Positions 1 to 64,000 of a DNA stretch of 64,000 nt are shown one piece after another. Source of the stretch: Struthio camelus (Eukaryota > Chordata > Aves > Struthioniformes > Struthionidae); NCBI RefSeq assembly GCF_040807025.1, contig NC_090953.1, positions 26,830,997-26,894,996 on the forward strand, given 5' to 3'. The position numbers and the translations under genes were made by a program. The notes under the pieces are model-generated. The model searched no databases, had not been told where the DNA came from, and was given only the letters and a program-made list of their open reading frames with translations. Position 1 is the first letter of the stretch. Every line of letters starts with the position of its first letter.

Positions 1-234
1 TCAGAAATGTCCCAGCCCCCTGGATGCTCTGGGTGGGCGGGGGCAGTGTGTTAGGGCTGGGAGTGTAGATTAGGCACCATGGACAGCCCCCCCGCCTGGC
101 TCTGGGTTTTCCTGTGTGGCCATCCCCTCCCCACACAGCTTGGGGTGCAAATGGAGCCTGTGGGCACATCTCCCTTCTTGCACTGTAAAGGAACACTGCC
201 AAGGCCCCCTCCCCACCTCCTGCCCCCGCCCACC

Positions 235-265
235 CATGCGCGCGCGCACACACACACGCACACGC
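235..265. repeat. Alternating CG/CA tract (Z-DNA prone)
   Basis: A 31-bp run of strictly alternating pyrimidine-purine, (CG)n followed by (CA)n. Such tracts favour left-handed Z-DNA. The tract recurs at 16822-16852, 31974-32004, 46044-46074 and 60114-60144 with no length change that I can see, which is unusual for a dinucleotide repeat and fits recent unit amplification. Confidence 0.85.
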
Positions 266-1324
266 TTGCAGAGACTGTACAGGCAAGCTTGGCTCAACGA
301 GAGCGATTATCACTAGCGACTCCTGAAACGGTGAGCCCTGCTATTACGGGATAAGGCCATGCTACGGCTGTGCCAGTCCCACAAGTAGCTGCTGCTGAAA
401 GGGATGGCCACATGCCCCTCTGTCCCAATCCCACCTTGTCCCTCACGCTGGCTCTGACACTCTCCTGACAGGGAGCTGGTGTAGAGGGTGATGCTGGTTG
501 GGAACCATTGATTTACGTGGGGAGTTACTTTCTCCCGGTGCAGCTCCGTGAAGCTGCACTCATCATGGGCCCACATAAGCACCGGAGAAAGCACGAGGGA
601 AGCAGAGAGAGGACATGGCCAGAAACAGAGCGGCTTTCGCCTCTGCAGGGCGCTTTCCTGTCCAGCTGGCTTTTCTGCAGGGCCAAACACCGTGCGCTGG
701 GTGAGCAAGCGAGTGAGCCACGCTTTCAGACAAGCCCTGACTTGCGCATGCACAAAATATGCTCTGCTAGCCTCAAACATCTCCGCAAGCCGACAGGAAA
801 CTGCGGGCTTACTGACCTCCTGCTGCCTCAGGATGTGGGTCTGGGTGCCCCCCTGGTTATGCAAGTGGGAGGCCACCGGACCCCTTGACACAGGCACCAT
901 GGTGGCAGGTCAGGGGCCAGCTCCGTTAGGCTCTCTGCAGCTGAATTTACAACAGCTGGAGCACTGCAGGCCACTCTGCAGAACCAAGAAATGGAGGGGA
1001 ACAGCTTCCAAGAAGTGGCTTTTTGTGCGGTATCTGTCACTGTTTTCCTGTACTGTAGACAAAACCAAGGTGGAAAGAGAGGGGCACCTTCAGAGCTTCT
1101 TTAAAAGCTTTTCACCATTCAGACCCCGTGCTGCTCCAGCCTCTTAGAGGAGGAGCCTGAGTGTCCGGGAGCAGCAAGCGCCGGCTGATCCCTAAGGGAT
1201 GGGGAGCCGGGTGCGATAACACGACTGGCTGGGCAAGGACCTTGCCTGCCAGGGTCCCTTCCCACCGCCACCAAGCCAGGCAAACAGGGCAGGCCTGGAG
1301 ATGCTAGCGAGGCTCAGCAAAGAG

Positions 1325-1530
1325 TACAGATCACCAGGGAAGTTCACCTGGTGATGAGGCAGGTCCGAGGTCAAGCTGGGAAGTAAATCTGCAGCTCAGG
1401 GTCAGGGTCAGAATCGGGTCTGGCAAGGGTGGTGAGGGTCAGACGCAGTCCAGTGATCACCAGGCAGGTCCATGGTGAAAAGGCAGGTCTGAGGTCAGGC
1501 TGGGACGTCAGACCGCGGGTCAGTGTCCAG
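1325..1530. repeat. Diverged 126-bp tandem duplication
   Basis: Two imperfect copies with a period of about 126 bp. Each starts at a GATCACCAGG block (1329 and 1455), continues through GGCAGGTC-GAGGTCA-GCTGGGA and is followed by a GGGTCAG-rich stretch. The style recalls GGTCAG-rich repeats seen in sauropsid interspersed repeats, but I cannot name a family. It recurs in the other units at 17912-18117, 33064-33269, 47134-47339 and 61204-61409. Confidence 0.6.
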
Positions 1531-2318
1531 ATCAATGGGGTCCATGGCTAGGCAGGGACATGGCCGTGACAGAGCCAGAGACTAGTACTCCCACAACATA
1601 GCGCAGCCAGAGGAAAGGCCTAGGGCTGAGCTTAAATGGGGCTCCTGGGCCCACAGGAAGAGGGTGCATGGTGGTGGGGGGGGGAGGTCCGAGCTGAGGC
1701 TGGTCAGGGCACTGAAGCCTATCAGTGCCCTCAGGGCTGTGACAGAGGGGGTCCCTCTCTCTGCTCAGCAGTGCCAGGAGCAGGCAGAAAGAGGGCCCAG
1801 CATAGCCCCGTGGTCTCATTGAACAGTCTCCCAAGGCCACCCTCCCACTGCTCTCCAAGAACCCAGAAACTCAGCGCAGTGACTCAGAAAAATCCAGCTC
1901 TGCCCTTGGAGAATATAGGTGTCTTTCTCTCCCTGGGAATGGAGAGAAAAGTGTGACTTGGAGCTGTGATTTGATTTCAGCACACCTGAGCTCTGTATTC
2001 TTGCTCTGGACAAGCCAACATGCTGTCACGGTGCTCCTGAGTCATGGCAAGAGTACGCATGTCTTTCCCACCGGCAGGCGCCACACAGGCAAGTGTGGGA
2101 CTCCGGATGGTGTAGCCCATAGAAGAGGGGTTTGCTCTGGGGTGCTCCCCAGGAGTTAGCGAACCCCAGGTGCACCATGGCTGTGGGGTTGCTGCACCCT
2201 GGGGGCACACCCTCTAACCACCCCATGATTGACAAGACCACATGAAGGAGAAGTGACACCGCAGACCCACACCACAAACATCTAGGGGCTGTGGAGCCAT
2301 CCCCCACAGAACGACCTG

Positions 2319-2853
2319 TTACTGGGCGTACCGTTACCAACAATTGCTACCCATGCTGGGTACGAGGGCTGGGCTGGGCACGAGGTTACCTGTTGGTATG
2401 CACTCTGCTATTGACTAGAGCCATACAGCTTTTGTATACCTGTGGGCTGGCGTTGTTTCGACTGGGTGTAAAAGAGAGGAAGCCCCATGGGTTTGTTGCG
2501 GACTTGGACCCATGGTCCGCTGGCCTGCAGACCCGAGGACCCACCCGTCAGTGGGGATGCCCCTAATGTCAACAGCGTGGTGAGGAGAATCCGGGGAAAA
2601 CTGTACCGGAGGGGTGGCCCGTGAGGGGCGAGAGCGGTCACCGTACCACCGTGCACCCGTGATTTAACCGTACAGCTCTGATAAGTATATGTACTTTCAG
2701 TTCTGTTATATTTCTCGCTATACTACACTGCACTTTTAGCTTTGTTATAACCTCCCATCTCTAATAAATTCTCACCCTTGACAAATGACAATCTCCCCGG
2801 TTCAGCGCAGCTAACTCGGGAATCCGAAAGAATCCCAGACACCCCTCTAGTGG
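2319..2853 (+). mobile_element. Possible solo LTR of an endogenous retrovirus (fossil)
   Basis: An island that is AT-richer than its surroundings at its 3' end, starting TGTTAC and ending near CAGACA. It has an AATAAA polyadenylation signal at about 2763, about 90 bp before the proposed end. No internal retroviral genes flank it and I see no clear target-site duplication, so this would be an old solo LTR. The boundaries and family are uncertain; an untranslated gene remnant is the alternative. Confidence 0.35.
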
Positions 2854-3050
2854 CGCGTCACACCCACGCGCTTTGAAGGCTGATGAACTGAGAAGCCAAA
2901 GACTTTGCCCGCAATGCCGCCCCATGGCCAGTTCCTGGGGAAGCAAGAGGGCTTCCTTCTGCCTTGGTTGGGGACTGGAGGGCTGCGTAGGGAGGGCTCT
3001 ACCACAGTAACCCCCGGAGGGAGGCTGTGGCAGTCTGAAGGAGTGTGTGT

Positions 3051-3058
3051 GGGGGGGG
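3051..3058. repeat. Length-variable G tract
   Basis: A G homopolymer following GTGTGTGT. It has 8 G in unit 1, 17 in units 2, 3 and 4 (19636-19652, 34788-34804, 48858-48874) and 14 in unit 5 (62928-62941). It is the most length-variable site between units and a useful copy marker; it is also a sequencing and assembly error hotspot. Confidence 0.85.
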
Positions 3059-3216
3059 AAGGGGCTGGGGAGTCAAAGAGAAAGGACAGGACATGAGCCA
3101 AGCGCTGAGCAACGACTGAGCTCCAGTTCCTGTGGGGAAGAGGCTCACTTGCTGCCGTGGTGCAGAGGAGGGAGGAGAGTGCAGCGCTCTCTGGGAGCTG
3201 GGAATTCGTGGAACGA

Positions 3217-3390
3217 GACAGACTGGAAGGGATCTCCGGAGGCCTCTAATTCAACTGCCCGCTCAAAGCAGGACTAGTGCCAAAGCTGGAGCCGGTCGCT
3301 CAGTGCCTGGCCCTGACACATTTTGAATTTGCTCTCCACGGAAGGAGAGTCCAAACTTCTCTGGGCACCTGCTCCACACGGCTTCAATGC
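3217..3390 (-). mobile_element. Old CR1 LINE, 3' UTR fragment
   Basis: The plus strand reads the complement of a CR1 3' end: a GACTGGAAGGGATCTCC block, then GCTCAAAGCAGG, then a TTTTGAAT-TGCTCTCC-GGAGAGTCC block. It is strongly diverged, so it is an old insertion, oriented opposite to the CR1-A that follows. Confidence 0.75.
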
Positions 3391-3484
3391 TCACTGAGTT
3401 AACGCTGCAGTTAACAACTGGCTGCACCGCTGGTGTTGGCAGCAGGGTTTTGGTTTCTATGACCGTGGGACCCTGTTTGAAGAT

Positions 3485-3523
3485 CTGATGGAGAGAGCTG
3501 ATGGAGAGAGCTGATGGAGAGAG
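3485..3523. repeat. 13-bp unit repeated three times inside CR1-A ORF1 tail
   Basis: CTGATGGAGAGAG occurs three times in perfect tandem just before the GIHLTKWG codons of CR1 ORF1. It interrupts the normal ORF1 reading. It recurs unchanged at 20079-20117, 35231-35269, 49301-49339 and 63368-63406, so it predates the unit amplification. Confidence 0.9.
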
Positions 3524-3911
3524 CTGGGATCCACCTCACCAAGTGGGGCATGCGTGTCTTTGCCAACAGGTTGACCAGCCTGGCAAGGAGGGCTTTAAAC
3601 TAGGCAAGATGGGGGAAGGGGAGTGTTATAGAGACAGGATAGTCAGTAAAACACTGCTCAAGTCAGGATGCCTCCAGCGGGTGCATGCAGCCAGGGGCAC
3701 AGCGCGGGACATGGCTATGGAGCATCCTCTTGCACCTCTCCTGAGAAGCCTGCATGCCCCATTTGGCTCTCTGAAATGCCTGTACACCAATGCACGCGGC
3801 ATGGGGAATCAGCAGGAAGAATTAGAGATCTGTGTGCGGTTGCAGGGCCAGGATCTCGTTGCAGTTACAGAGACGTGGTGCGATAGCTCACGTGACTGGA
3901 ATGCTGTCATG

Positions 3912-3959
3912 GATGGCTATGCACTTTTTAGGAAAGATGGCTATGCACTTTTTAGGAAA
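3912..3959 (+). repeat. 24-bp in-frame duplication in CR1-A endonuclease
   Basis: Two perfect 24-bp copies encode DGYALFRK twice in a row in the EN domain; usual CR1 has this block once. The frame is kept. Present at the same place in all units: 20506-20553, 35658-35705, 49728-49775 and 63795-63842. Confidence 0.9.
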
Positions 3960-5400
3960 GACAGGCTAGGAAGGCGAGGTGCTGTGGAGTTACTCTTTAT
4001 GTGAGGGAGCAACTAGAATGTCTGGAGCTCTGCCTCGGGGTGGATGAAGAGCAAGCTGAGAGCTTATGGGTAAGGATTAAAGGGCAGGCTAACATGGGTG
4101 ACACTGTTGTGGGGGTTTACTACAGGCCACCTGATCAGGAAGAAGTAGTCAATGGGGCCTTCTACAGACAGCTGGAAGTAACCTCACGATCAGAGGCCCT
4201 GGTTCTCCCGGGAGACTTCAACCACCCTGACATCTGCTGGGAAGAGAGCACAGCTAGGCACAAACAGTCGAGGAGGGTCCTGCAGAGCACTGATGATAAC
4301 TTCTTGACACAGGTGGTGGAGACGCCAACAAGGAGAGGTGTGCTGCTTGACCTTGTGCTAACAAACAAAGGAGGCCTGGTTGGATCTGTGAAGGCTGGGG
4401 GCAGCCTTGGCTGTAGTGGAGTTCAGGCTCCTACGAGGAGGAAGCAGGGCAATAAGTAATATAAGTCAGATCACAACCCTGGACTTCAGGAGAGCTAACT
4501 TTGGCCTCTTCAGGGACCTCCTCAGGGGAATCTCATGGGGTAGGGCCCTAGCAGGAAGAGGGGTCCAGGAGAGCCGGTTAATATTCAAGCATCGTTTCCT
4601 CCAGGCTCAAGACGGGTGCATCCCTCTTGAGTAGGAAGTCCAGCAAAGTGGGCAGGAGACCTGCATGGATGAGCAAGGAGCTCCTGGCAGAACTCCAACA
4701 GAAGAAGGAAGTCTACAGAATGTGGAAAAGGGGACAGGCCACTTGGGAGGAATACAGGGACGTTGTCAGAGTGTGCAGGGATGCGACGAGGAAGGCTAAG
4801 GCCCAGTTGGAATGAAATCTGGCAAGGGATGCCAAGGACAACCAGAAGGGCTTCTTCAACTACATCCTGGAGGTCCTCACTGAGCATGTGGAGGACAAGG
4901 AGGTGATCAGGAGTAGTCAGCACGGGTTCACCAAAGGGAAATCATGCTTGACCTTCTCTGATGGCCTGACTGGCTGGGTAGATGAGGGCAGAGCAGTGGA
5001 TGCTGTCTCCCTGCACTTCAGCAAGGCTTCTGACACTGTCTCCCATCACTTTCTCATAGGTAAACTCAGCAAGTGTGGATTGGATGAGTGGACAGTGAGG
5101 TGGCCTGAGGACCGGCTGGATGGCCGAGCTCAGAGGGTTGTGGTCAGTGGCACAGAGGCCTGTAGCTCGCACTGTCCCGCAGGGGTCAGTCCTGGGTCCA
5201 GTCCTGTTCAACGTATTCATCGATGACCTGGACGAAGGCACAGAGTGCACCCGCAGCAAGTTTGCTGAGGATACTAAACTGTGGGGGAGTGGCTGACACA
5301 CCAGAAGGCAGTGCTGCCGTTCCGAGGGACCAGGACAGGCTGGAGAGCTGGGCGGAGAGGAACCTCCTGAAGTTCAACAAAGGCAAGGGCAGGGTCCTGC

Positions 5401-5752
5401 CATCAGGAAGCTGTGGATTTAGCTCCCTGAAGGGAAGGGAGAAACAGCTTTGTGCCCAGGACACCCACACTCTTGTGGGGGGACCTCTCTGTGGTCCACT
5501 GCCTGTGAACCACAGCAGTCTCTGCCCCTCGGGGGCACTTTTGGAGGCCTGGATGCTAAGAAAGCAAAGGAGAAGGTGGGAGAAGATGCTGAGAAAGCAA
5601 AGGAGAACGCAGGAGGAGCACAGACAAGGGGCTGAGGAGTGGCACAGCCACCAACCAGCCCTGGCCAGAGACCTGGAGCGCAGCACTGCGGGGAGTGCTG
5701 GTGCACGTGCCCAAAGTGAGAGGCCCCACCTCTCAGGGGGGCGGGGTGGGGC
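5401..5752. other. Spacer between CR1-A and tRNA-iMet, with 33-bp duplication
   Basis: Non-CR1 spacer. It holds an imperfect 33-bp tandem duplication (5552-5584 and 5585-5617) that in one frame reads as an 11-residue repeat, DAKKAKEKVGE then DAEKAKENAGG. The open frame is only 61 codons (5450-5635) and matches no family I recognise. Equivalents of the duplication lie at 22151-22216, 37298-37363 and 51368-51433. Confidence 0.6.
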
Positions 5753-5756
5753 AAAA
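5753..5756 (-). terminator. Pol III terminator of tRNA-iMet, unit 1
   Basis: TTTT on the minus strand, 7 nt after the tRNA 3' end. Confidence 0.85.
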
Positions 5757-5762
5757 GGGCCA

Positions 5763-5834
5763 TAGCAGAGGATGGTTTCGATCCATCGACCTCTGGGTTA
5801 TGGGCCCAGCACACTTCCGCTGCGCCACTCTGCT
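5763..5834 (-). tRNA. tRNA-iMet-CAT: Initiator tRNA-Met (CAT)
   Basis: The 72-nt minus-strand gene delivers methionine to the P site at translation start. Initiator hallmarks are visible: three G:C pairs (GGG/CCC) closing the anticodon stem around CCCATAA, GATCGAAAC instead of TTCG in the T loop, and A1:T72 at the acceptor end (AGCAGAG pairs with CTCTGCT, then A). It matches my recollection of vertebrate iMet except C to T in the D stem (GGAAGTGTGC), which makes a G-U pair. A T4 terminator lies 7 nt downstream. Confidence 0.96.
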
Positions 5835-7543
5835 CCCCCCAGCAGCTTTGTGGGGAGATGGCAGGGCCCTCCCTGCCACTCCCAGGCACTGACCGTGCCA
5901 GCTCTTGGGCTCGGGGGGTTGCCGTTCCTCCTGCCTGGGCCTGGTCCCACGGAGGAAAAAAGTCTCCCCCGGGAAGCCCCAAGGCCGTGGGCCCGGGCTG
6001 AAGCCGCCTTGGTTTGCCCTTATGACGCCATCTCCTGCCTGGCACAGACCCAGGGGAAAGCGGGGAGTTTGTGTTTGCCCAACTGAGCTGCCTCTGCAGG
6101 GGAGGACAGAAACCCCAGAGCCAGGGGGCAGCCTGCCTGCCTGCATTGTGCTGGGAGCGCTTGCTTCCCAACGAGTGGATGAGTGTCTGATGCTCTCCTA
6201 GCCAGGAAAAGGCTCCCCTCCACCTGGAGTCACGTGCCTCTCCTGCACACAGTGCTTTCCTTGTGCAGGCTTGGTGAGCCCTGGGAGCCCCCGGTGGCTT
6301 TCTGCCCTGGAGAGGCAGGTTCCACCTCTGCTGGTGACCTGCTGCTGACACACTTCCTCAGAGCCGCTGCCCAGGCCAAGCCTGAAGAGCTGCGCTAGAG
6401 TGACCCCTGAGCCCAATGGATGCTCTCTTGCTGCCATCCCAAGGACGTTTTGGGCACCTCCATTTCAGTCCGCAGCAAGGGAAGGAGGAAGCCCCAAACC
6501 AAGTCAACCCTGCTGGCCCCTTGCTGCCCCACATGACTGAGTTGTGGCAGGGCACCCTGCCAAGGGGGAAAGCCCCATCACCTGGAAGGACTCAGGGACT
6601 GGCTCTGTCTCTTGCAAACTGCCCTGTGCTCACCAAAGACAGCAGCTGCGGTGCTTTAGTGCAAACCAGTGCTGGAGGAAGTAGGAGCAGGGAGGGCAGA
6701 GGAAGGCAGGAGTTAAGTGATGTTAGGAAGGAACTGGTGCAGGCTAGAGCAACGATTCCCAGGTGCTTTCCTGGCAGTGCCCTCTTTCCCAGGGCCCTGG
6801 ACTTCTCTGCCTTGACAAAGCTCTGCTTCAGATGTGCCTTCCAGGCCCACCTGCCGTGCAGGCGTGTCAGGGCTCCTTGGCCTTGCTGGTGAGCTGACTG
6901 GCAGCTGTGTCCAACGCGGTGTCCCCACAGCTGTGTTCAACACGGTGTCCAGGCTCTCTGGCCTGGGGCCCAGAGGTGCGCCCCCTCCCCACGGAGCCCA
7001 TAGTCTTCCTGGGTGGGAAGGAAACCCAGGCCTCCTGCATGTGCAGGAACCAGAGGAGCGCAGAGCTGGGCACTGCTTCCTCTCAGGCTGACGCAAGGGG
7101 AAGGAAAAATATCACTGTGGATGCCTGTTCCTGCATAGCAGCAGGGAAATAAGACTGTAAGGAGTATAATTACCCCAGAATGTCTTTGTCCAGGATTTCC
7201 CCAGCTCTGCTTCCTCCCCAGGGCTGGGCATCTGGTGGCACCTTCTGTCCAGTCCGCCTCACTCCACAGCAGGCACTGGGAGGTAAGTGAGACACTTCCC
7301 CTGGAGTCCCAGGTGTGGTGCCTCTGTTGGGGTGTATTGCAGCCCTCATGTTCCTGCCTGCTGTCCACGTCTGAATGCGCTCGTCTGTGGGTCTGTGCGT
7401 GCCCAGCTGTGGTGTGTCCAAAGAGTGCAAAGGAGAACTCCCCCCCCCCCCATCCCCCTAGTGCAGCCTGGCCCTGGAACTCGCAGCAGGCCGGACGAGT
7501 TGCACAGGGCACGTGATCACTGCTGCTGAGAGGTTTGGGGCAG
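5835..7543. other. GC-rich spacer between tRNA-iMet and the Ser pseudogene, unit 1
   Basis: About 1.7 kb with no recognised gene or transposon. It contains a C homopolymer near 7440 that is longer in units 1 and 2 and is broken by a T in units 3 and 4. A 310-codon minus-strand open frame (5419-6351) runs through the iMet gene and has no recognisable domain, so I treat it as spurious. Equivalents: 22434-24142, 37581-39289 and 51651-53359. Confidence 0.6.
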
Positions 7544-7625
7544 GAAGCTGTGGCCGAGTGGGGAAGGCGATGGACGTGAAACGCATGGGGGTTTCCCTGC
7601 GCAGGTTCGAATCCTGCCAACTATG
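7544..7625 (+). pseudogene. tRNA-Ser pseudogene (anticodon now TGA)
   Basis: An 82-nt serine tRNA relic. The D arm (GGCCGAGTGG), long variable arm and perfect T arm (GCAGG-TTCGAAT-CCTGC) are kept. The anticodon loop reads CGTGAAA, giving anticodon TGA (still serine) where the intact paralogue at 15249-15330 has CTAGAAA. Two anticodon-stem pairs are broken (ATGGA against CGCAT) and the acceptor stem has mismatches (GAAGCTG against CAACTAT). The flanks match those of the intact Ser(AGA) gene on both sides, so it is a segmental copy of that gene. TTTT follows at 7640. It could still be transcribed from its B box, but a working tRNA is unlikely. Confidence 0.85.
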
Positions 7626-8125
7626 GGGCACCTGTCCCCTTTTGGGCTGCCTGGAGCGACCAGGCTCCAGCCCTGGACAAAGCCTCACAGCCACAGTCCC
7701 TCCAGCTGAACAGCGTGCCCGGTGAACCCTCCATCCCTCTAGTCACCCTCAGCTTCCCCCCAGAGTCGCCAGGGCGCGTGCAAACCCCCTCTCTCCTTTC
7801 CCAGCCACACAGGCTCACACCTTTCCTGACAGAGACATGCTCTCCTCTGGGGACGGATGGATTTTCTTCTCAGGGGCATGTTTTTCCCACGGGGCCAGAG
7901 CTGAGATGCACGTGCTTCTGTGATGGGAAGGGAGGCATCCTTTGTGGAAACTTCTGCAAGTTTTTGCAGCATCAGGAGAAGAGGCAGGGGCAGGGCAATG
8001 CTGCTTCCTATTCTTTTTCCTTCTGCTGCATCTTTCTCCCCTCTCAGACTCCCGGGATAGTCTTGAAAGCTCAGCGAGGGTCAGAGAGTGCCTGGGACGA
8101 GCAGGAGGCAGGCATAGGTCTGCGT
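7626..8125. other. Spacer between Ser pseudogene and tRNA-Gly, unit 1
   Basis: About 500 bp without a recognised gene. Its first 60 bp are the shared 3' flank of the Ser duplication (compare the complement of 15185-15248). Equivalents: 24225-24724, 39372-39871 and 53442-53941. Confidence 0.6.
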
Positions 8126-8197
8126 GCGTTGGTGGTATAGTGGTGAGCATAGCTGCCTTCCAAGCAGTTGACCCGGGTTCGATTCCTGGCCAACGCA
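8126..8197 (+). tRNA. tRNA-Gly-TCC: tRNA-Gly (TCC)
   Basis: A 72-nt glycine tRNA reading GGA and, by wobble, GGG codons. The acceptor stem GCGTTGG pairs fully with CCAACGC; the anticodon loop is CTTCCAA; the B box is GGTTCGATTCC. The T stem has one G-U pair (CCGGG against CCTGG), shared with unit 2. A T4 terminator lies 8 nt downstream. Confidence 0.95.
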
Positions 8198-8698
8198 CAT
8201 GCACTTTTCTTCTCCCAGGCGCCTGCAGAGGCCCTTCCACCTCCTGCCAGAAAAAAGCCCAGGTTTCCCCAACAGGTTCATGTTCCCTCGGGGAGCCACT
8301 CCCCTTGCTGCATGCACAGGCAGGGTGAGGCACCCCACAGAGCCCAGGAGAGACAGGGGCCCCCTCCTCCTTCAGCAATGCCTGCCTTGGCCAAAGCAGC
8401 AGGTCTGTCGCCGAGCACAGCTTCCAGGCTGCTTGCCCTGCCCCCCGAGGCATAGCCCTGCAGAAGGAAGCGCCCCAGAATGAAGGTGCTACCTCCTTTG
8501 CTAGAAGCATGACAGGCTTCTGCAAAGGGCTCTGCTGCTCTCCTGAAGGGCCCGCTTCTGACTGCATGGTGCCTCAAGGGCCTGCAGAAAGGCTGTGCAT
8601 GGGCGTTGCTGGGGAGATGCAGAAAGCCCCTGGCTCAGCCAGGACCATGTGGCTCAGCCCTGCTATAGCGACAGAGCGGCAAGAAGAGGTGTCCAGGC
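8198..8698. other. Spacer between tRNA-Gly and tRNA-Gln, unit 1
   Basis: No gene recognised. The first 200 bp are paralogous to 15988-16210 downstream of the Gly pseudogene (shared CCTGCAGAGGCCCTTCCACC, then GAGGGGAGCC-type and CACCCCACAGAGCCCAGG blocks). Unit 2 equivalent: 24797-25297. In units 3 and 4 most of this is deleted. Confidence 0.65.
8205..8208 (+). terminator. Pol III terminator of tRNA-Gly, unit 1
   Basis: TTTT 8 nt after the tRNA. Confidence 0.85.
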
Positions 8699-8770
8699 GG
8701 TCCCATGGTGTAATGGTGAGCACTCTGGACTCTGAATCCAGCGATCTGAGTTCAAGTCTCAGTGGGACCT
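8699..8770 (+). tRNA. tRNA-Gln-CTG: tRNA-Gln (CTG)
   Basis: A 72-nt glutamine tRNA reading CAG codons. The acceptor stem GGTCCCA pairs with TGGGACC, the anticodon loop CTCTGAA is closed by CTGGA/TCCAG, and the T arm CTGAG-TTCAAGT-CTCAG pairs fully. Compared with the usual vertebrate gene (GGTTCCA and CCGAG stems), the changes are compensated on both strands, which points to selection on structure. The nearest T4 run is 42 nt downstream, farther than for the other tRNAs. Confidence 0.95.
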
Positions 8771-8811
8771 CAGGCTTCTGCTTCACTGAGGGCCTGCCTC
8801 AGCTGACTGCA

Positions 8812-8815
8812 TTTT
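8812..8815 (+). terminator. Distant T4 run after tRNA-Gln, unit 1
   Basis: First TTTT downstream, 42 nt after the tRNA; termination is expected to be late or weak. Confidence 0.5.
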
Positions 8816-8906
8816 ACACCCTTGCGTTGCTCTTGGGTAGACTGCTTTACGCACTCCGGTCTTCCTTCCCTCTTCTCGTGCCCCTGGCACTGGGTTTGGG
8901 CAGAGG

Positions 8907-9655
8907 GTCACAGGATCACTGAACAGCTGAGGTGGGAAGGAACTTCTGCAGACTATCTAGTCCAACCCCTCCTCAAAGCAGGGTCAAGAAAAGGAGTCTG
9001 TTCAGGGCCCTGTGATGTCAAGTTTTGAAAAATCTCCATGGATGGAGACTCCACAGCTTCTCTGGGCAAGCTGTTCCCATGTTTGACAGCCCCGCACAGT
9101 AAAACAGGGGGGGGTTCTGTGTGTTTAAGTGGAATGTCATGTACTTCATGGCTTGTGCCCACTGCCTCTTGCCCTGTCCCTGGGCACCGCCAAGAAGCGG
9201 CTGGCTCTCTCTTCTCTACTCCCTCTTCCCCCTCTTCGTCCACCACCTCAGGTACTTATACACATTGATAAGATTCCCCCCCACCCCCACCCCAACCTTA
9301 GCCTTCTCTTCCCCAGGCTAGACAATCCCAGCTCTGTTAGCCTCTCCTGGTATGACAGATGGCGCAAGCCCTTGACCTTCTCTGTGGCCTTTTGCTGTGC
9401 TCACTCCAGTGTGGCCTTGTCTCTCTCGTACCGGGAAGCCCAGAAATGGACACAGCACTCCAGATGTGCTCTCACCAGTGCTGAGCAGAGGGGAAGGATC
9501 ACACCTCCCTCAGCCTGCTGGCAACGCTCTTCCTAACGCAGCCCAGGATGCTGCCAGCCGCCTTTGCTGCAAGGGCACGTTGCTGCCTCAAGTGCTGAAG
9601 GCCTTCCGGGACACAACAGCTCTGCTCTGAAATAAGTGCCCGTGAGATACCAAGC
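8907..9655 (-). mobile_element. CR1 LINE fragment (CR1-B), 3' UTR and RT C-terminus
   Basis: The plus strand shows the complement of a CR1 3' end: GATCACTGAACAG, GGTGGGAAGGAACTTCTG, ATCTAGTCCAACCCC-TCAAAGCAGGGTCA and ATGGAGACTCCACAGC. It continues through TACTTATACACATTGATAAGATT into the RT C-terminal coding part (complement of [21 protein letters not shown]-type text). It is diverged, with several breaks. No coding capacity remains. Confidence 0.88.
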
Positions 9656-51572: not shown

Positions 51573-51578
51573 GGGCCA

Positions 51579-54013: not shown

Positions 54014-54020
54014 CATGCAC

Positions 54021-54024
54021 TTTT
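54021..54024 (+). terminator. Pol III terminator of tRNA-Gly, unit 4
   Basis: TTTT 8 nt after the tRNA. Confidence 0.85.
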
Positions 54025-54111
54025 CTTCTCCCAGGCGCCTGCAGAGGCCCTTCCACCTCCTGCCAGAAAAGAGCCCAGGCAGGGCTGCATGCACAGGCAG
54101 GGTGAGGCACC

Positions 54112-54395
54112 TTGACCTTCTCTGTGGCCTTTTGCTGTGCTCACTCCAGTGTGGCCTTGTCTCTCTCGTACCGGGAAGCCCAGAAATGGACACAGCACTC
54201 CAGATGTGCTCTCACCAGTGCTGAGCAGAGGGGAAGGATCACACCTCCCTCAGCCTGCTGGCAACGCTCTTCCTAACGCAGCCCAGGATGCTGCCAGCCG
54301 CCTTTGCTGCAAGGGCACGTTGCTGCCTCAAGTGCTGAAGGCCTTCCGGGACACAACAGCTCTGCTCTGAAATAAGTGCCCGTGAGATACCAAGC
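54112..54395 (-). mobile_element. CR1-B remnant, unit 4 (3' part deleted)
   Basis: Same truncated remnant and same junction as in unit 3. Confidence 0.85.
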
Positions 54396-54834
54396 TCCTG
54401 GGGAGCTGACAGAGCCCCTAACTGCTGGAACCAGAAACATGACGGCACCAGTGGAGTCCCTGCAAGGGCACCTGGCATGCAGATGCCCAGGGGCTCCTGC
54501 AGAGGGAGGAAGGACACTTTGAAGAGCCCTGTTCACTTGCTGCCAGGTGCGGACTGGCCCGAGAGGGAAGGCAGAGGCAACAGCCCTGAGTCCGCAGAAG
54601 AGCTCCACCTACTGCAAAGATGGTGTAACTCGAGCAGCAGTCCCTGCTGGGAGATGTGGGTGGTACAGCTTTGGGAAGAGTAATGCATGAACTGGGGGAC
54701 TGAACAGTGACACGGGATGTGGCTTGGTGTTTGGCTGCATGCTTGTAAGTACGAGGCCTTGGTTTGCTCCTGAGCAGCCCCGGTGCTTCTTGCCTCCAGT
54801 GCCTCCTGTAAGTAACCACCTGTCTTAGCAAAAA

Positions 54835-55610
54835 GAGACAAGGCCCGGACTGTCGGCTCGGCAGGCTGGAGAAACGGGCAGACAGGAGCCGCAGGAAGTT
54901 CAGCAAGGCAAAGTGCAACGCCCTGCACCCGGCGAGGAATAACCCCAGGCACCCGGGGAGGAATAACCCCAGGCGCCAGTACATGGTGGGGGCCGACCTG
55001 CTGGAAAGCAGCTTTGCAGAAAAGACCTGGGGGTCCTGGCACCCTACAAGCTGACCACAAGCCAGCAACGTGCCTTTGTGGCAAAGGCGGCCCACGGTAG
55101 GCTGGGCTGCGTGAGGAAGAGTGTTGCCACCAGGTCAAGGGAAGTGGTGCTTTCCCCTCTACTCAGCGCTCCAGAGGCCACATCTGGAGCGCGGTCTCCA
55201 GTTCTGGGCTCCGCAGTGGAAGAAAGAGAGGGCCCTACCGGCACGAGTCCAGCAAAGAGGCACAAGGATGATTAGGGGCCTGGAGAACCTCTCATATGAG
55301 GAGAGGCTGAGAGAGTCGGGACTGTTGAGCCCGGAGAAGAGAAGGCTCACGGGGCATCTTACCAGTGCGTATAACTATCCAACGGGAGGGTCGAACGAAG
55401 ACAGACCAAGGGAGTGGTGCCCCTCTTCTCGGTGGTGCCCACTGACAGGGCAAGAGTCATCGCACACAAACTGAACACGGGAAATTCAGCTTGAACGTGA
55501 GAAAATGCTTCTTTAGCGTGAGGCTGGCTGAACATTGGAACAGGTGGCCCAGAGAGGTTGTGGATTCTCCATCCTTGGTTTTCCCTCCTCAGGTTCTGGC
55601 AGAGAGAGGT
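54835..55610 (+). mobile_element. CR1-C, unit 4 copy
   Basis: Same fragment as at 10095-10870. Confidence 0.88.
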
Positions 55611-56337
55611 AAGCTCAGGACAGGGGGGAATGCTTTCCTGTGCAGAGCGGGTGGCTAACGGAGGCTGGCGGAGAAAGAAACACCACCACGAGTCTCCAGC
55701 TATGCTGCACAACATCTTTAATGAGCAGGAAGGAAAAAAGGAAAAAAAGCAGCACAGAGACCAAGACACATGTTTCCTGGGTTGAGTGAGGCACAGAGAA
55801 TTGCCCGTTTCCCCAGGACAAGCGGCATGCAAAGCGTTTGCCTTTTCCCATTCCAGCTCTACCTTGTGGCAATCACATCCTACCTACAGCAATTCCTAAC
55901 CCCCAAACCGTCCTGCCGTCAGCAGGAGACTCAGCAGAGCGGACGAGCACGAGCTCTTTCTCGAGGAGCTCAGAGTGCAGCAGAGCCAGAGGCAGCATGG
56001 CGAGGCCTGGCTCTGTGAGGTGGAGCTGGGAACTCAGTGCGCTCAGGCCTCCAGCCCTTTCAAGACCCCCACCAGATCAGCCTTTCTTTTCTTTCCTCAT
56101 CTTTCTCTGTGCCCTCCAAATCCAGTTCTAGCTGCATGTCCCCGAGGGGCCTGCGGCTGGTTTTCTTAAAATGCACAACAAGCGTTACATCTCACCTTAA
56201 GGCTGGATTTGAGGGCCTGGCAGCAAAGATTTGCCTAACCCACTGCTTATTGCCCCAGGTCCGGGCACTAAGGACAAGGACAAGGCTGGGCGTGCAGACG
56301 TGAGCATGGGGAGTCCAGCAGTGGTGTGCATGATGCA

Positions 56338-56409
56338 GGGGGTGTAGCTCAGTGGGAGAGCATTTGACTGCAGATCAAGAGGTCCCTGGTTCAACTCCAG
56401 GTGCCCCCT
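56338..56409 (+). tRNA. tRNA-Cys-GCA: tRNA-Cys (GCA), unit 4
   Basis: Same sequence as the unit 1 gene, in the unit 2-type context. Confidence 0.96.
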
Positions 56410-56419
56410 CCACTGCTGC

Positions 56420-56423
56420 TTTT
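56420..56423 (+). terminator. Pol III terminator of tRNA-Cys, unit 4
   Basis: TTTT 11 nt after the tRNA. Confidence 0.85.
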
Positions 56424-56811
56424 CTTCCTGGAGCTTCTCCTGTGCCTTGGCGGCCTGCTTCCCCATCCCTCAGTGGGAAGGCTGTGGGGGACAGACACCT
56501 GTTCAAAGAGAAAGCCAGGAGCAAAGGCATTTCTCCAAAGGCCCTTTCCTGCACTCAGTCCTTTCCCCAGGGCAGGCAGTGAGGTGGCATTGTTGCGCGA
56601 ACAGGAAACTTTCGCACAGCAGCTCCATCTCCTGTGAATAACCACACACACATATACACGCACCCACCCCGCTGCCATCCCTCCCACCATCCCCCGCGAG
56701 GACAGCATTATATCTCAAACCTTGACTATGACTTGTACAGTAAATACATGAAATACAGGGTGTCCACTTAAGAGAGCAACAGCACAAAGAATGAGGTAGT
56801 CATAGTTAAAT

Positions 56812-56936
56812 TTAGCTTGGAAGGCAGCTTACAGGTCTGTAGTCCAACCTCCAGTTCCGGGCAGGGCTGACTGCAGAGTTACTTGAGGCTGCCTGTGGCC
56901 TTGTCCAGTTGAGGTCTGAAAACCCCAGTGAGGGAG
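56812..56936 (-). mobile_element. Older CR1, 3' arm (unit 4)
   Basis: Unit 4 copy of the arm at 28672-28796. Confidence 0.7.
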
Positions 56937-58975
56937 AATCACAGAATCACAGAATGGTTTAGGTTGGAAGGGACCTCTGGAGATCATCTAGTCCAACCTC
57001 CCTGCTCAAGCAGGGTCCTCTAGAGCATATTGCCCAGGATCACATCCGGACGGGTTTTGAATATCTCCAGCGAAGGAGACTCCACTGCCTCGCTGGGCAA
57101 CCTCTTCCAGTGCTCTGTCACCCTCCCAGTGAAGAAGTTTTTTTCTCAGATTCAGATGGAACTTCCTGTGGTTCAGTTTCTGCCCGTTGCCTCTTGTCCT
57201 GCTGCTGGGCACCACGGAGAAGAGGCTGGCCTCATCCTCTTGACACCCCCCTTCAGATACTTATACACGTTGATCAGATCACCTCTCAGTCTTCTCTTCT
57301 CCAGACTGAACAGGCCCAGCTCTCGCAGTCTTTCTTCCTAGGAGAGGTGCTCCAGTCCCCTCACCATCTTTGTAGCCCTCCGCTGGACTCTCTCCAGTAG
57401 CGCCATGTCTCTCTTGTACTGGGGAGCCCAGAATTGGGCACAGTACTCCAGGTGAGGCCTCCCCAGGGCTGAGGAGAGGGGCAGGATCACCTCCCTCCAC
57501 CTGCTGGCAACACTCTGCCTCATGCACCCCAGGATACCATTGGCCTTCTTGGCCACAAGCCCACGTTGCTGGCTCATGCTTAACTTGTTTAACCTGAGGA
57601 CTGGAAGAACCACTCCCAGGTCCTTCTCGGCAGAGCTACTTTCCAGCAGGTCAACCCCCAGCCTGTACTGCTGCATGGGATTATTTCTCCCGAGGTGCAG
57701 GACCTTGCACTTGCCTTTGCTGAACTTCAGGAGGTTCCTCTCCGCCCAGCTCTCCAGCCTGCCCTGGTCCCTCGGAATGGCAGCACTGCCTTCTGGTGTG
57801 TCAGCCACTCCCCCCAGTTTAGTATCCTCAGCAAACTTGCTGCGGGTGCACTCTGTCCCTTCCTCCAGGTCATTGAGGAATATATTGAACAAGACTGGAC
57901 CCAGGACTGACCCCCTAGCCAGTGGGGCACCACTAGCTACACGCCTCCAACTTGACTCTGCGCCATTCACCACAACCCTCCGAGCTCGGCCATCCAGCCA
58001 GTTCTCAATCCACCTCACCGTCCACTCCTCTAGCCCACACTTGCTGAGTTTACCTACGAGGATGTGATGGGAGACAGTGTCAAAAGCCTTGCTGAAGTCC
58101 AGGTAGACAGCATCCACTGCTCTCCCCTCATCTACCCAGCCGGTCATCCCATCCTAGAAGGCTATCAGATTGGTCAAGCATGATTTCCCTTTGGTGAATC
58201 CATGCTGACTACTCCTGATCACCTTCTTGTCCTCCAGATGCTTAGTGAGGACCTCCAGGAGGAGCTGTTCCATCACCTTTCCTGGGATGGAGGGGAGGCT
58301 GACAGGCCTGTAGTTCCCTGGCTCCTCCTTCTTGCCCTTTTGGAAGGCTGGGGTGACATTGGCTTTCTTCCAGTCCTCAGGCACCTCTCCTGATCTCCAG
58401 GACCTCTCCAAGATGATGGAGAGTGGCCTAGCCATAACATCCGCCAGCTCTCTCAGCACTCGCGGATGCATCCCGTCAGGACCCACGGATTTATGGAGGT
58501 CAAGTTTGGACAAAAGATCTCTAACCTGATCCTCCTCCTCCACCAAGGGGGAGTCTTCCTTTCTCCAGCCTTCCTCTCTTGTCCCCAGGGTCTGGAATTC
58601 CTGAGGGCTGGCCTTAGCAGTGAAGACTGAAGCAAAGGCAGCATTCAGTAACTCTGCCTTCTCTATTTCCTTTGTTACCAGGGCACCCGCCCCATTCAGC
58701 AGCGGGCCCACCTTGGCCCTAGTCTTCCTCTTGCTAGTGATGTATTTGAAGAAGCCCTTCTTGTTGTCCTTGGCATCCCTTGCCAGATTTCATTCCAACT
58801 GGGCCTTAGCCTTCCTCGTCGCATCCCTGCACACTCTGACAGCGTCCCTGTATTCCTCCCAAGTGGCCTGTCCCCTTTTCCACATTCTGTAGACTTCCTT
58901 CTTCTGTTGGAGTTCTGCCAGGAGCTCCTTGCTCATCCATGCAGGTCTCCTGCCCGCTTTGCTCGACTCGAATCT
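56937..58975 (-). mobile_element. Younger CR1 (CR1-E), unit 4 copy
   Basis: Same as 28797-30835, with stops at 58790-58792 (TGA), 58154-58156 and 57338-57340 (TAG). Confidence 0.95.
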
Positions 58976-59012
58976 GCCTGTTCCAGGAGGAAACCACACC
59001 CACCATGCTTTT

Positions 59013-59100
59013 TTTCCCCTCTTCTGATATCAAATCAGAATTTCCCTTGTTGCAGCTTGTTCCCATTGTCTCCTGTCCTTTCCTTGTGCACCTGTAAGAA
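59013..59100 (-). mobile_element. Older CR1, 5' arm (unit 4)
   Basis: Unit 4 copy of the arm at 30873-30960. Confidence 0.65.
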
Positions 59101-59412
59101 GGAGGCGGCCTCTGTCTTCCCGAGGGTTCAGCCAGTAGATCTGGCCCGAGGAACTCCCCTTGCTCTTTCACCACACCTGCAGTGAGCCCAGAGGCCCTGT
59201 TGCTCTTTGGGGACTGCAGGGGCACAAATCCCACCAAGCCCCGAGCCAGTTTAGGGAGCTGATCTGACCTGACCCTAGGGGCTCTCCTTGCCTCCTTCAC
59301 CACAAGCCATGGGCTTCTCTGAGGGGCACAGACTGGAGAGCACAGCATGCAGAGAAGGATGTCCAGGAGGAAAGTCCTGGCCCGAGGCTCTCCACTGCCA
59401 GCCGGGGAAAGG

Positions 59413-59416
59413 AAAA
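59413..59416 (-). terminator. Pol III terminator of tRNA-Leu, unit 4
   Basis: TTTT on the minus strand, 16 nt after the tRNA. Confidence 0.8.
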
Positions 59417-59432
59417 GAGGCAGCGACAAGCT

Positions 59433-59515
59433 TGTCAGGAGTGGGATTCGAACCCACGCCTCCCACGGAGACTGCGACCTGAACGCAGCGCCTTAGACCG
59501 CTCGGCCACCCTGAC
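59433..59515 (-). tRNA. tRNA-Leu-CAG: tRNA-Leu (CAG), unit 4
   Basis: Same sequence as the unit 2 gene. Confidence 0.96.
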
Positions 59516-62197
59516 CCCTCTGCCAACCTTGGCTCAGCTCCTGCCCTGAAGGCTGTCCCCTCTGCAGCGTGTCTCTGGCTGTCTCTCCCCAGGAAACAGG
59601 GGGTTTGGTTCCTGATGTTTCCCGCCCCGCAGCCTTCCTGCTGGCCCCAGTTCTGCCCCTGCTCTCCTCTTCCTGCCCGCCTCCAAAGCCAGCCTGGCTG
59701 GGGGCTGGGGAAGGGCAAGCTGGGCAGAACCTGGTGGGTCAGGAAGCACCACCTCCCCAGCTCCGCTGCCAGCAGGACGGCGTCCTGCGGTGGGCTCAGA
59801 CCACCAGCCTTGGGGTGCCCTCTCTGCTGGTGCCACAGAGCTGCCCATGCGGGGCCTCTCAGGGCCACCTTTTCCTGCCTCAGAAATGTCCCAGCCCCCT
59901 GGATGCTCTGGGTGGGCGGGGGCAGTGTGTTAGGGCTGGGAGTGTAGATTAGGCACCATGGACAGCCCCCCCGCCTGGCTCTGGGTTTTCCTGTGTGGCC
60001 ATCCCCTCCCCACACAGCTTGGGGTGCAAATGGAGCCTGTGGGCACATCTCCCTTCTTGCACTGTAAAGGAACACTGCCAAGGCCCCCTCCCCACCTCCT
60101 GCCCCCGCCCACCCATGCGCGCGCGCACACACACACGCACACGCTTGCAGAGACTGTACAGGCAAGCTTGGCTCAACGAGAGCGATTATCACTAGCGACT
60201 CCTGAAACGGTGAGCCCTGCTATTACGGGATAAGGCCATGCTACGGCTGTGCCAGTCCCACAAGTAGCTGCTGCTGAAAGGGATGGCCACATGCCCCTCT
60301 GTCCCAATCCCACCTTGTCCCTCACGCTGGCTCTGACACTCTCCTGACAGGGAGCTGGTGTAGAGGGTGATGCTGGTTGGGAACCATTGATTTACGTGGG
60401 GAGTTACTTTCTCCCGGTGCAGCTCCGTGAAGCTGCACTCATCATGGGCCCACATAAGCACCGGAGAAAGCACGAGGGAAGCAGAGAGAGGACATGGCCA
60501 GAAACAGAGCGGCTTTCGCCTCTGCAGGGCGCTTTCCTGTCCAGCTGGCTTTTCTGCAGGGCCAAACACCGTGCGCTGGGTGAGCAAGCGAGTGAGCCAC
60601 GCTTTCAGACAAGCCCTGACTTGCGCATGCACAAAATATGCTCTGCTAGCCTCAAACATCTCCGCAAGCCGACAGGAAACTGCGGGCTTACTGACCTCCT
60701 GCTGCCTCAGGATGTGGGTCTGGGTGCCCCCCTGGTTATGCAAGTGGGAGGCCACCGGACCCCTTGACACAGGCACCATGGTGGCAGGTCAGGGGCCAGC
60801 TCCGTTAGGCTCTCTGCAGCTGAATTTACAACAGCTGGAGCACTGCAGGCCACTCTGCAGAACCAAGAAATGGAGGGGAACAGCTTCCAAGAAGTGGCTT
60901 TTTGTGCGGTATCTGTCACTGTTTTCCTGTACTGTAGACAAAACCAAGGTGGAAAGAGAGGGGCACCTTCAGAGCTTCTTTAAAAGCTTTTCACCATTCA
61001 GACCCCGTGCTGCTCCAGCCTCTTAGAGGAGGAGCCTGAGTGTCCGGGAGCAGCAAGCGCCGGCTGATCCCTAAGGGATGGGGAGCCGGGTGCGATAACA
61101 CGACTGGCTGGGCAAGGACCTTGCCTGCCAGGGTCCCTTCCCACCGCCACCAAGCCAGGCAAACAGGGCAGGCCTGGAGATGCTAGCGAGGCTCAGCAAA
61201 GAGTACAGATCACCAGGGAAGTTCACCTGGTGATGAGGCAGGTCCGAGGTCAAGCTGGGAAGTAAATCTGCAGCTCAGGGTCAGGGTCAGAATCGGGTCT
61301 GGCAAGGGTGGTGAGGGTCAGACGCAGTCCAGTGATCACCAGGCAGGTCCATGGTGAAAAGGCAGGTCTGAGGTCAGGCTGGGACGTCAGACCGCGGGTC
61401 AGTGTCCAGATCAATGGGGTCCATGGCTAGGCAGGGACATGGCCGTGACAGAGCCAGAGACTAGTACTCCCACAACATAGCGCAGCCAGAGGAAAGGCCT
61501 AGGGCTGAGCTTAAATGGGGCTCCTGGGCCCACAGGAAGAGGGTGCATGGTGGTGGGGGGGGGAGGTCCGAGCTGAGGCTGGTCAGGGCACTGAAGCCTA
61601 TCAGTGCCCTCAGGGCTGTGACAGAGGGGGTCCCTCTCTCTGCTCAGCAGTGCCAGGAGCAGGCAGAAAGAGGGCCCAGCATAGCCCCGTGGTCTCATTG
61701 AACAGTCTCCCAAGGCCACCCTCCCACTGCTCTCCAAGAACCCAGAAACTCAGCGCAGTGACTCAGAAAAATCCAGCTCTGCCCTTGGAGAATATAGGTG
61801 TCTTTCTCTCCCTGGGAATGGAGAGAAAAGTGTGACTTGGAGCTGTGATTTGATTTCAGCACACCTGAGCTCTGTATTCTTGCTCTGGACAAGCCAACAT
61901 GCTGTCACGGTGCTCCTGAGTCATGGCAAGAGTACGCATGTCTTTCCCACCGGCAGGCGCCACACAGGCAAGTGTGGGACTCCGGATGGTGTAGCCCATA
62001 GAAGAGGGGTTTGCTCTGGGGTGCTCCCCAGGAGTTAGCGAACCCCAGGTGCACCATGGCTGTGGGGTTGCTGCACCCTGGGGGCACACCCTCTAACCAC
62101 CCCATGATTGACAAGACCACATAAAGGAGAAGTGACACCGCAGACCCACACCACAAACATCTAGGGGCTGTGGAGCCATCCCCCACAGAACGACCTG

Positions 62198-62732
62198 TTA
62201 CTGGGCGTACCGTTACCAACAATTGCTACCCATGCTGGGTACGAGGGCTGGGCTGGGCACGAGGTTACCTGTTGGTATGCACTCTGCTATTGACTAGAGC
62301 CATACAGCTTTTGTATACCTGTGGGCTGGCGTTGTTTCGACTGGGTGTAAAAGAGAGGAAGCCCCATGGGTTTGTTGCGGACTTGGACCCATGGTCCGCT
62401 GGCCTGCAGACCCGAGGACCCACCCGTCAGTGGGGATGCCCCTAATGTCAACAGCGTGGTGAGGAGAATCCGGGGAAAACTGTACCGGAGGGGTGGCCCG
62501 TGAGGGGCGAGAGCGGTCACCGTACCACCGTGCACCCGTGATTTAACCGTACAGCTCTGATAAGTATATGTACTTTCAGTTCTGTTATATTTCTCGCTAT
62601 ACTACACTGCACTTTTAGCTTTGTTATAACCTCCCATCTCTAATAAATTCTCACCCTTGACAAATGACAATCTCCCCGGTTCAGCGCAGCTAACTCGGGA
62701 ATCCGAAAGAATCCCAGACACCCCTCTAGTGG
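62198..62732 (+). mobile_element. Possible solo LTR, unit 5 copy
   Basis: Unit 5 copy of the LTR-like fossil at 2319-2853; same position within the unit. Confidence 0.35.
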
Positions 62733-63099
62733 TGCGTCACACCCACGCGCTTTGAAGGCTGATGAACTGAGAAGCCAAAGACTTTGCCCGCAATGCCGCC
62801 CCATGGCCAGTTCCTGGGGAAGCAAGAGGGCTTCCTTCTGCCTTGGTTGGGGACTGGAGGGCTGCGTAGGGAGGGCTCTACCACAGTAACCCCCGGAGGG
62901 AGGCTGTGGCAGTCTGAAGGAGTGTGTGGGGGGGGGGGGGGAAGGGGCTGGGGAGTCAAAGAGAAAGGACAGGACATGAGCCAAGCGCTGAGCAACGACT
63001 GAGCTCCAGTTCCTGTGGGGAAGAGGCTCACTTGCTGCCGTGGTGCAGAGGAGGGAGGAGAGTGCAGCGCTCTCTGGGAGCTGGGAATTCGTGGAACGA

Positions 63100-63273
63100 G
63101 ACAGACTGGAAGGGATCTCCGGAGGCCTCTAATTCAACTGCCCGCTCAAAGCAGGACTAGTGCCAAAGCTGGAGCCGGTCGCTCAGTGCCTGGCCCTGAC
63201 ACATTTTGAATTTGCTCTCCACGGAAGGAGAGTCCAAACTTCTCTGGGCACCTGCTCCACACAGCTTCAATGC
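63100..63273 (-). mobile_element. Old CR1 3' fragment, unit 5 copy
   Basis: Copy of the fragment at 3217-3390 in the partial unit. Confidence 0.75.
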
Positions 63274-63322
63274 TCACTGAGTTAACGCTGCAGTTAACAA
63301 CTGGCTGCACCGCTGGTGTTGG

Positions 63323-64000
63323 CAGCAGGGTTTTGGTTTCTATGACCGTGGGACCCTGTTTGAAGATCTGATGGAGAGAGCTGATGGAGAGAGCTGATGG
63401 AGAGAGCTGGGATCCACCTCACCAAGTGGGGCATGCGTGTCTTTGCCAACAGGTTGACCAGCCTGGCAAGGAGGGCTTTAAACTAGGCAAGATGGGGGAA
63501 GGGGAGTGTTATAGAGACAGGATAGTCAGTAAAACACTGCTCAAGTCAGGATGCCTCCAGCGGGTGCATGCAGCCAGGGGCACAGCGCGGGACATGGCTA
63601 TGGAGCATCCTCTTGCACCTCTCCTGAGAAGCCTGCATGCCCCATTTGGCTCTCTGAAATGCCTGTACACCAATGCACGCGGCATGGGGAATCAGCAGGA
63701 AGAATTAGAGATCTGTGTGCGGTTGCAGGGCCAGGATCTCGTTGCAGTTACAGAGACGTGGTGCGATAGCACACGTGACTGGAATGCTGTCATGGATGGC
63801 TATGCACTTTTTAGGAAAGATGGCTATGCACTTTTTAGGAAAGACAGGCTAGGAAGGCGAGGTGCTGTGGAGTTACTCTTTATGTGAGGGAGCAACTAGA
63901 ATGTCTGGAGCTCTGCCTCGGGGTGGATGAAGAGCAAGCTGAGAGCTTATGGGTAAGGATTAAAGGGCAGGCTAACATGGGTGACACTGTTGTGGGGGTT
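63323..64000 (+). mobile_element. CR1-A, unit 5 copy (cut by window end)
   Basis: ORF1 tail and first half of the EN domain, with the CDSTRDW variant shared with units 3 and 4. It runs off the window. Confidence 0.92.

Follow-up and report, generated by a model that had tools for sequence, protein, structure and literature searches.

The window analysed here, a stretch of 64,000 nucleotides from the ostrich Struthio camelus (positions 26,830,997-26,894,996 of contig C12, in an assembly of 1.45 Gb), is one piece of a tandem array of transfer RNA (tRNA) genes that comprises at least 23 units and at least 404 kb. This array displays a tandem structure, differences in module content between units, a collinear remnant of a beta-keratin locus and the near-identity of many neighbouring units. 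We propose, with a probability of about 0.7, that it is a by-product macrosatellite, shaped by unequal exchange and carrying apparently intact, partly transcribed tRNA genes, which lies beside an array of beta-keratin genes and shares part of its ancestry with it.

Using ARAGORN and the Rfam family RF00005 (cut-off 29 bits), we obtained the same set of 18 tRNA genes in the window (52.8-66.9 bits), namely four Met-CAT, which we take from their sequence to be of the initiator type (iMet), four Gly-TCC, two Gln-CTG, four Cys-GCA, three Leu-CAG and one Ser-AGA. Self-BLASTN resolved four complete head-to-tail units of 16.6, 15.15, 14.07 and 14.07 kb, matching one another at offsets of about these lengths, with 4-5 tRNA genes per unit and identities of 99.7-99.98% (for example, 23,964 bp at 99.975% and 11,539 bp at 99.82%); a chance origin of these repeat matches is excluded. 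A sequence-only reading of the window had described five copies of a unit carrying iMet, Gly, Cys and either Gln, Leu or Ser genes. The tandem array of mixed isotypes is confirmed, and the number is corrected to four complete units followed by 4.1 kb of a fifth (Table 1). A tRNA-derived short interspersed nuclear element is rejected, given that whole tRNA bodies lie in tandem units, rather than in dispersed head-plus-tail copies, and that an iMet probe is all but confined to one contig.

The extent of the array was established by searching the assembly with a probe of 201 bases over iMet, which gave 42 matches, including 23 plus-strand landmarks spread over C12:26,514,300-26,911,723 with a mean spacing of 18 kb. 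Since the array runs from the first of these landmarks to the end of the contig (26,918,268), which lies inside it, it measures at least 404 kb. Fourteen of the 23 landmarks match the flank of the probe and do not run through the tRNA body, so that the presence of iMet cannot be read from them. All matches to the iMet-plus-flank probe (iMet being the only gene probed) are located on C12, except one weak match (75%) on C8, and no telomeric repeat was seen by eye in the last 600 bases of C12. The sequence of the array was read from 26.50 to 26.74 Mb (240 kb, opening with 14 kb of flank) and over the right 87 kb, which include the window, 26.740-26.831 Mb being covered only by two 3.2-kb pieces. 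These 327 kb, some stretches of which read N, hold at least 58 readable tRNA genes (17 Cys, 12 Ser-AGA, 11 Gln, 7 iMet, 4 Gly, 4 Leu-CAG and 3 Leu-AAG), and most long segments in the left part are 98.5-99.8% identical between units.

The units differ in length and content along the array. The landmark spacing is 20-25 kb at the left, then 15.5, 16.9 and 16.6 kb, and finally 14-15 kb. In our module map of 18 units, part of them incomplete, the left units carry Gln, Cys and Ser genes with or without Leu-AAG, and the right units carry iMet, Gly, Cys and Leu-CAG genes with or without Gln. That the units are still altering their gene content, as had been claimed from the window, is borne out by the following lines of evidence. 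First, the Gln module is absent from six of the 17 units covering its site (window units 3 and 4 and four of 11 left units), which are not all adjacent, and the two deletion joins that were read, those of window unit 3 and of a left unit, are alike. Second, the Leu-AAG module occurs in three units, where it is flanked by direct repeats of about 1.3 kb (98% identical), and one other unit with a single repeat of about 1.3 kb and no Leu-AAG is likely the excision product of recombination between such direct repeats. Third, from window unit 2 onward (four units read far enough), a Leu-CAG tail bearing fragments of a long interspersed nuclear element (LINE) stands in place of the Ser tail, a 220-bp block around Cys being retained. 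Insertions or deletions of about 2.6, 1.4, 3.8, 1.1 and 2.9 kb also separate units. In one module, M1, the last four units are 0-0.2 substitutions per kb apart, and the difference between the ends of the array reaches 4.8 per kb. We interpret the module differences and this local similarity as marks of unequal exchange with local homogenisation. Within the Ser tail, positions 15888-16212 form a 76% repeat of the Gly gene site (8099-8398), and are probably an old, decayed Gly locus.

On its left, beyond the window and so out of sight of the sequence-only reading, the tRNA array adjoins a tandem repeat with a period of 6.86 kb (99.87% identity, two copies compared), the minus-strand open reading frame (ORF) of which encodes a beta-keratin (PF02422; 106.6 bits against a cut-off of 25; E 5.1e-31). 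Many relatives of this protein are annotated as feather keratin or beta-keratin-related, the closest among the named matches being from budgerigar (89%) and barn owl (88%), and no match was found in the PDB by sequence. A DNA probe recovered at least 40 genes at 99-100% identity (Table 1), a lower bound as 40 of 269 candidates were scored. Two pieces holding the right end of the keratin repeat contain no Rfam family above cut-off. In the genome, 150 of 414 candidate PF02422 genes were scored, and these best 150 include further keratin arrays at C2:171.83-172.12 Mb, C25:1.13-1.72 Mb and C30:4.91-4.98 Mb.

The two arrays have more than neighbourhood in common. Six blocks of tRNA unit 1, 72-87% identical to the flanks of the keratin gene, are collinear and on the same strand in the keratin unit, where blocks two and three flank the keratin coding region; none of 50 base-shuffled controls yielded any block at the same threshold. 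Over the keratin coding region, the alignment outside the blocks remains at 36-55%, the background level, and tblastn with the neighbouring keratin (E up to 1) found two genes to the left only, and none in the tRNA units read. This comparison of sequences shows that the tRNA unit carries a collinear remnant of a keratin locus, the coding part of which is gone; two of the six blocks are also found in unit 2. A survey past the far side of the keratin array (C12:26180001-26189000, the keratin matches starting at 26,240,166) revealed, at 26.181-26.189 Mb, rearranged tRNA-unit sequence of about 74-99% identity, one part of which is inverted and matches the leftmost tRNA unit at 99.4%, and in which no tRNA gene is readable. 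From the keratin remnant in the tRNA units and the tRNA-unit sequence beyond the keratin array, it seems that both kinds of unit expanded inside a single domain.

In the mechanism that we favour, unequal crossing-over and gene conversion between the long repeats would expand, contract and homogenise the tRNA array, and tRNA genes would be gained and lost as modules through such exchange. The tRNA bodies vary in one of 75 columns for Cys, one of 82 for Ser, two of 73 for Gly and none for the other types, and in all seven gene types the first copy is followed, no more than about 45 bases downstream, by a run of four T. Because the tRNA genes look intact, at least some units are probably transcribed by RNA polymerase III (Pol III), and these would add to the supply of iMet, Gly, Cys, Gln, Ser and Leu tRNAs. 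The near-invariant bodies and the T runs of the first copies are consistent with the earlier suggestion that tRNA dosage is a plausible outcome. The expansion would most simply be the by-product of an amplification-prone keratin/tRNA domain; there is no proof of selection for dosage, which stays an inference.

Several observations weigh against this proposal. First, the copy number is drawn from one assembly. Second, similarity does not always follow distance: M1 of the first window unit differs less from a unit 150 kb away (0.8 substitutions per kb) than from two units closer by (1.2 per kb), and in another module, M6, the units split into two blocks, left and right, with a single unit of intermediate type and no gradient. 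Third, the flanks are nearly as invariant as the genes (variable columns: Gln, 5/600; iMet, 3/601; Leu-AAG, 1/600; Leu-CAG, 0/600; Ser, 14/614), the high values for Cys (183/724) and Gly (109/642) being due to structural differences; since the flanks of the Gln, iMet and Leu genes are equally invariant, the invariant tRNA bodies say little about selection. Fourth, two of the four window Gly genes (units 3 and 4) have, by reading, a mismatch in the acceptor stem, and score 55.8 instead of 60.0 bits. Fifth, the CpG observed/expected ratio of the tRNA unit is 0.31 at 57.6% GC, with an excess of TG (1.36) and CA (1.33), which suggests germline methylation of the units, so that many tRNA copies could be silent. 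This ratio shifts abruptly at the border between the two arrays, from about 0.5 in the keratin units to about 0.3 in the tRNA units.

The neighbourhood of the keratin genes invites the explanation that the array was kept and expanded for the tRNAs needed in the bulk synthesis of short beta-keratins rich in Ser, Gly, Leu and Cys, as well as for the many initiator tRNAs required, keratin genes and tRNAs having been amplified side by side. Linked copy number (no fewer than 40 keratin genes and 23 tRNA units) would then tune the tRNA pool to one mass-produced protein. The adjacency and shared ancestry of the arrays agree with this, as does the composition of the neighbouring keratin (104 residues without Met: Ser 17.3, Pro 13.5, Gly 11.5, Leu 10.6, Ala 9.6 and Cys 8.7%), four of the five elongator types of the array being within its top six residues (chance probability 0.014; 0.031 for the top seven). 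However, this residue comparison was picked post hoc and the overlap is only mildly unlikely; the tRNA genes read include none for Pro, Ala or Val, and they do include Gln genes, though Gln makes up only 1.9% of the keratin. Furthermore, by the wobble rules as we presume them, Gly-TCC suits only six of the 12 Gly codons of the keratin, and GGC accounts for six of the 12. A parallel exists in plants, where, according to PMC12308677, a cluster of Ser and Tyr tRNA genes in Arabidopsis is tied to extensin synthesis. On balance, we consider it unlikely that such a selected supply explains the ostrich array or that its copy number is tuned in this way.

The CpG depletion lends itself to another interpretation, in which the units are a methylated satellite with nearly all tRNA genes untranscribed and no effect on tRNA supply. 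The presence of LINE fragments in each unit and the extension of near-identity into the tRNA flanks point in the same direction as the low CpG and the excess of TG and CA. Against these stand the whole tRNA bodies with their terminators and the fact that CpG loss records the germline only; in addition, Pol III on methylated tRNA repeats in Xenopus and mouse embryos is cited in PMC12308677. A silent satellite is, in our opinion, improbable, to about the same degree as the selected supply. Finally, the location of the contig end inside the array and the absence of substitutions in a 4-kb module between some neighbouring units could indicate units falsely duplicated or over-extended by the assembler, but the several separate insertions, deletions and substitutions between units are not expected from assembler copying and make this artefact very improbable.

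Returning to the unit of the proposed macrosatellite, its content other than tRNA genes was examined in ten ORFs of the window, four of which match LINE reverse-transcriptase or endonuclease models in Pfam (three at or above the curated cut-off and one below it, E 0.0032), and six of which match nothing. The fragments at 29198-30649, which we take to be CR1-like, best match bird and turtle proteins among the best 120 of 7982 matches, the closest of these 120 being from ostrich (85% identity) and kiwi (77-82%), and by sequence they find distant reverse-transcriptase chains only in the PDB. These bird-like matches, like the many PF02422 keratin genes of the genome, bear out the earlier statement that the array is from a bird. 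LINE fragments at 4637-5400 and at 29557-30828, the latter with later copies, lie on opposite strands in one unit and are 86-98% identical; they are possible material for inversions. An ORF over iMet has 21 homologues, 18 of which cover 7-24% of the query and three 38-50%; these are presumed to be matches over the tRNA itself. On the Pfam scan of the ten ORFs and the coverage of these homologues, we reject the idea that the tRNA unit carries a protein gene as its cargo. The initial statement that the units contain no recognisable protein gene was nearly right, the exceptions being the LINE ORF fragments and the decayed beta-keratin locus. A boundary marked by CTCF motifs is not supported, as matches to the consensus that we presumed did not clearly exceed chance (in unit 3, three one-mismatch matches, where 40 resamples averaged 1.6 and seven of them reached three), and the human and mouse CTCF 24-mers differ by at least seven bases from any site in the window.

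Table 1. Features of the ostrich tRNA array and of its keratin neighbour (window positions, unless C12 is stated)
Feature	Position	Strand	Basis
Unit 1, 16.6 kb: iMet, Gly, Gln, Cys, Ser	1..16587	+	ARAGORN, self-BLASTN
Unit 2, 15.15 kb: iMet, Gly, Gln, Cys, Leu-CAG	16588..31739	+	ARAGORN, self-BLASTN
Unit 3, 14.07 kb: iMet, Gly, Cys, Leu-CAG; without Gln module	31740..45809	+	ARAGORN, self-BLASTN, module map
Unit 4, 14.07 kb: iMet, Gly, Cys, Leu-CAG; without Gln module	45810..59879	+	ARAGORN, self-BLASTN, module map
Unit 5, first 4.1 kb; without tRNA gene inside the window	59880..64000	+	self-BLASTN
tRNA-Met CAT (presumed initiator), unit 1	5763..5834	-	ARAGORN, Rfam
tRNA-Met CAT (presumed initiator), unit 2	22362..22433	-	ARAGORN, Rfam
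tRNA-Met CAT (presumed initiator), unit 3	37509..37580	-	ARAGORN, Rfam
tRNA-Met CAT (presumed initiator), unit 4	51579..51650	-	ARAGORN, Rfam
tRNA-Gly TCC, unit 1	8126..8198	+	ARAGORN, Rfam 60.0 bits
tRNA-Gly TCC, unit 2	24725..24797	+	ARAGORN, Rfam 60.0 bits
tRNA-Gly TCC variant, unit 3	39872..39944	+	ARAGORN, Rfam 55.8 bits
tRNA-Gly TCC variant, unit 4	53942..54014	+	ARAGORN, Rfam 55.8 bits
tRNA-Gln CTG, unit 1	8699..8771	+	ARAGORN, Rfam
tRNA-Gln CTG, unit 2	25298..25370	+	ARAGORN, Rfam
tRNA-Cys GCA, unit 1	14511..14585	+	ARAGORN, Rfam
tRNA-Cys GCA, unit 2	28198..28272	+	ARAGORN, Rfam
tRNA-Cys GCA, unit 3	42268..42342	+	ARAGORN, Rfam
tRNA-Cys GCA, unit 4	56338..56412	+	ARAGORN, Rfam
tRNA-Ser AGA, unit 1 only	15249..15330	-	ARAGORN, Rfam
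tRNA-Leu CAG, unit 2	31293..31375	-	ARAGORN, Rfam
tRNA-Leu CAG, unit 3	45363..45445	-	ARAGORN, Rfam
tRNA-Leu CAG, unit 4	59433..59515	-	ARAGORN, Rfam
Gln module, present in window units 1 and 2, absent in 3 and 4	8264..9369	+	self-BLASTN, module map
Replacement tail with LINE reverse-transcriptase fragments and Leu-CAG	28358..31483	-	self-BLASTN, Pfam, module map
Decayed beta-keratin locus, unit 1	10858..12954	-	six blocks, 72-87% identical to keratin-gene flanks
Keratin remnant, unit 2: two of six blocks	27458..27871	-	block comparison
LINE endonuclease and weak reverse-transcriptase fragments	3956..5226	+	Pfam
LINE reverse-transcriptase fragments	29198..30649	-	Pfam, homologue search
Beta-keratin array, at least 40 genes at 99-100%, 6.86-kb period	C12:26,240,166-26,510,237	all -	DNA probe

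Long tRNA arrays of mixed isotypes have been described from few vertebrates, and the ostrich one is very large. In a single assembly it displays several states of recombination, namely shared deletions, a module between direct repeats together with its likely excision product, and locally homogenised units. Its position beside keratin genes, with which it shares sequence, makes it testable whether, as has long been asked, the bulk synthesis of a single protein brings a matching gain of tRNA genes. If the supply reading were true, this would be a vertebrate case of a structural-protein array and the tRNA genes serving it amplified as one domain, the tRNA pool being matched to that protein through linked copy number; an array that proves neutral would nonetheless document well how unequal exchange alters the number of tRNA genes in nature.

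Xenopus has tandem tRNA units of mixed isotypes that are much shorter than the ostrich unit. The closest counterpart is the human 1q23.3 tRNA gene variable number tandem repeat, for which Darrow and Chadwick (2014; PMC4041453) give a 7.3-kb unit in 9-43 copies, holding five tRNA genes (Leu, Gly, Glu, Gly, Asp; four isotypes), and a mouse counterpart at 1qH3 with a 7.6-kb unit. The human and ostrich arrays both consist of GC-rich, highly similar units (98% identical in human, 99.7-99.98% in the window) that measure several kb and follow one another in tandem, different tRNA genes occupying the two strands, with a LINE fragment per unit and no other gene seen. Because the human repeat matches in kind, a long-period array of mixed isotypes is not new in vertebrates, and the sequence-only view of such an array as unusual is not supported for the arrangement in itself. 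The ostrich array differs in its 14-25 kb units with changing gene content and its length of at least 404 kb; in its isotypes (iMet, Gly, Gln, Cys, Ser and Leu); and in its CpG-depleted unit (0.31), where the human unit has a CpG island. Unlike human 1q23.3, it also adjoins a keratin array and carries a keratin remnant.

The Arabidopsis SYY cluster (PMC12308677) resembles the supply reading in that tandem tRNA genes are proposed to serve a bulk repetitive protein; it is from a plant, has other isotypes and is linked to that protein by expression, whereas the ostrich case is linked by neighbourhood. Among the open-access papers that our searches listed, none describes tandem arrays of nuclear tRNA genes in birds or connects tRNA genes with feather keratin. 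The pairing of a tRNA array with a keratin array looks new, and its purpose is unproven. The neighbouring 6.86-kb repeat is itself an avian beta-keratin tandem array (PF02422), which adjoins tRNA units that bear a keratin remnant.

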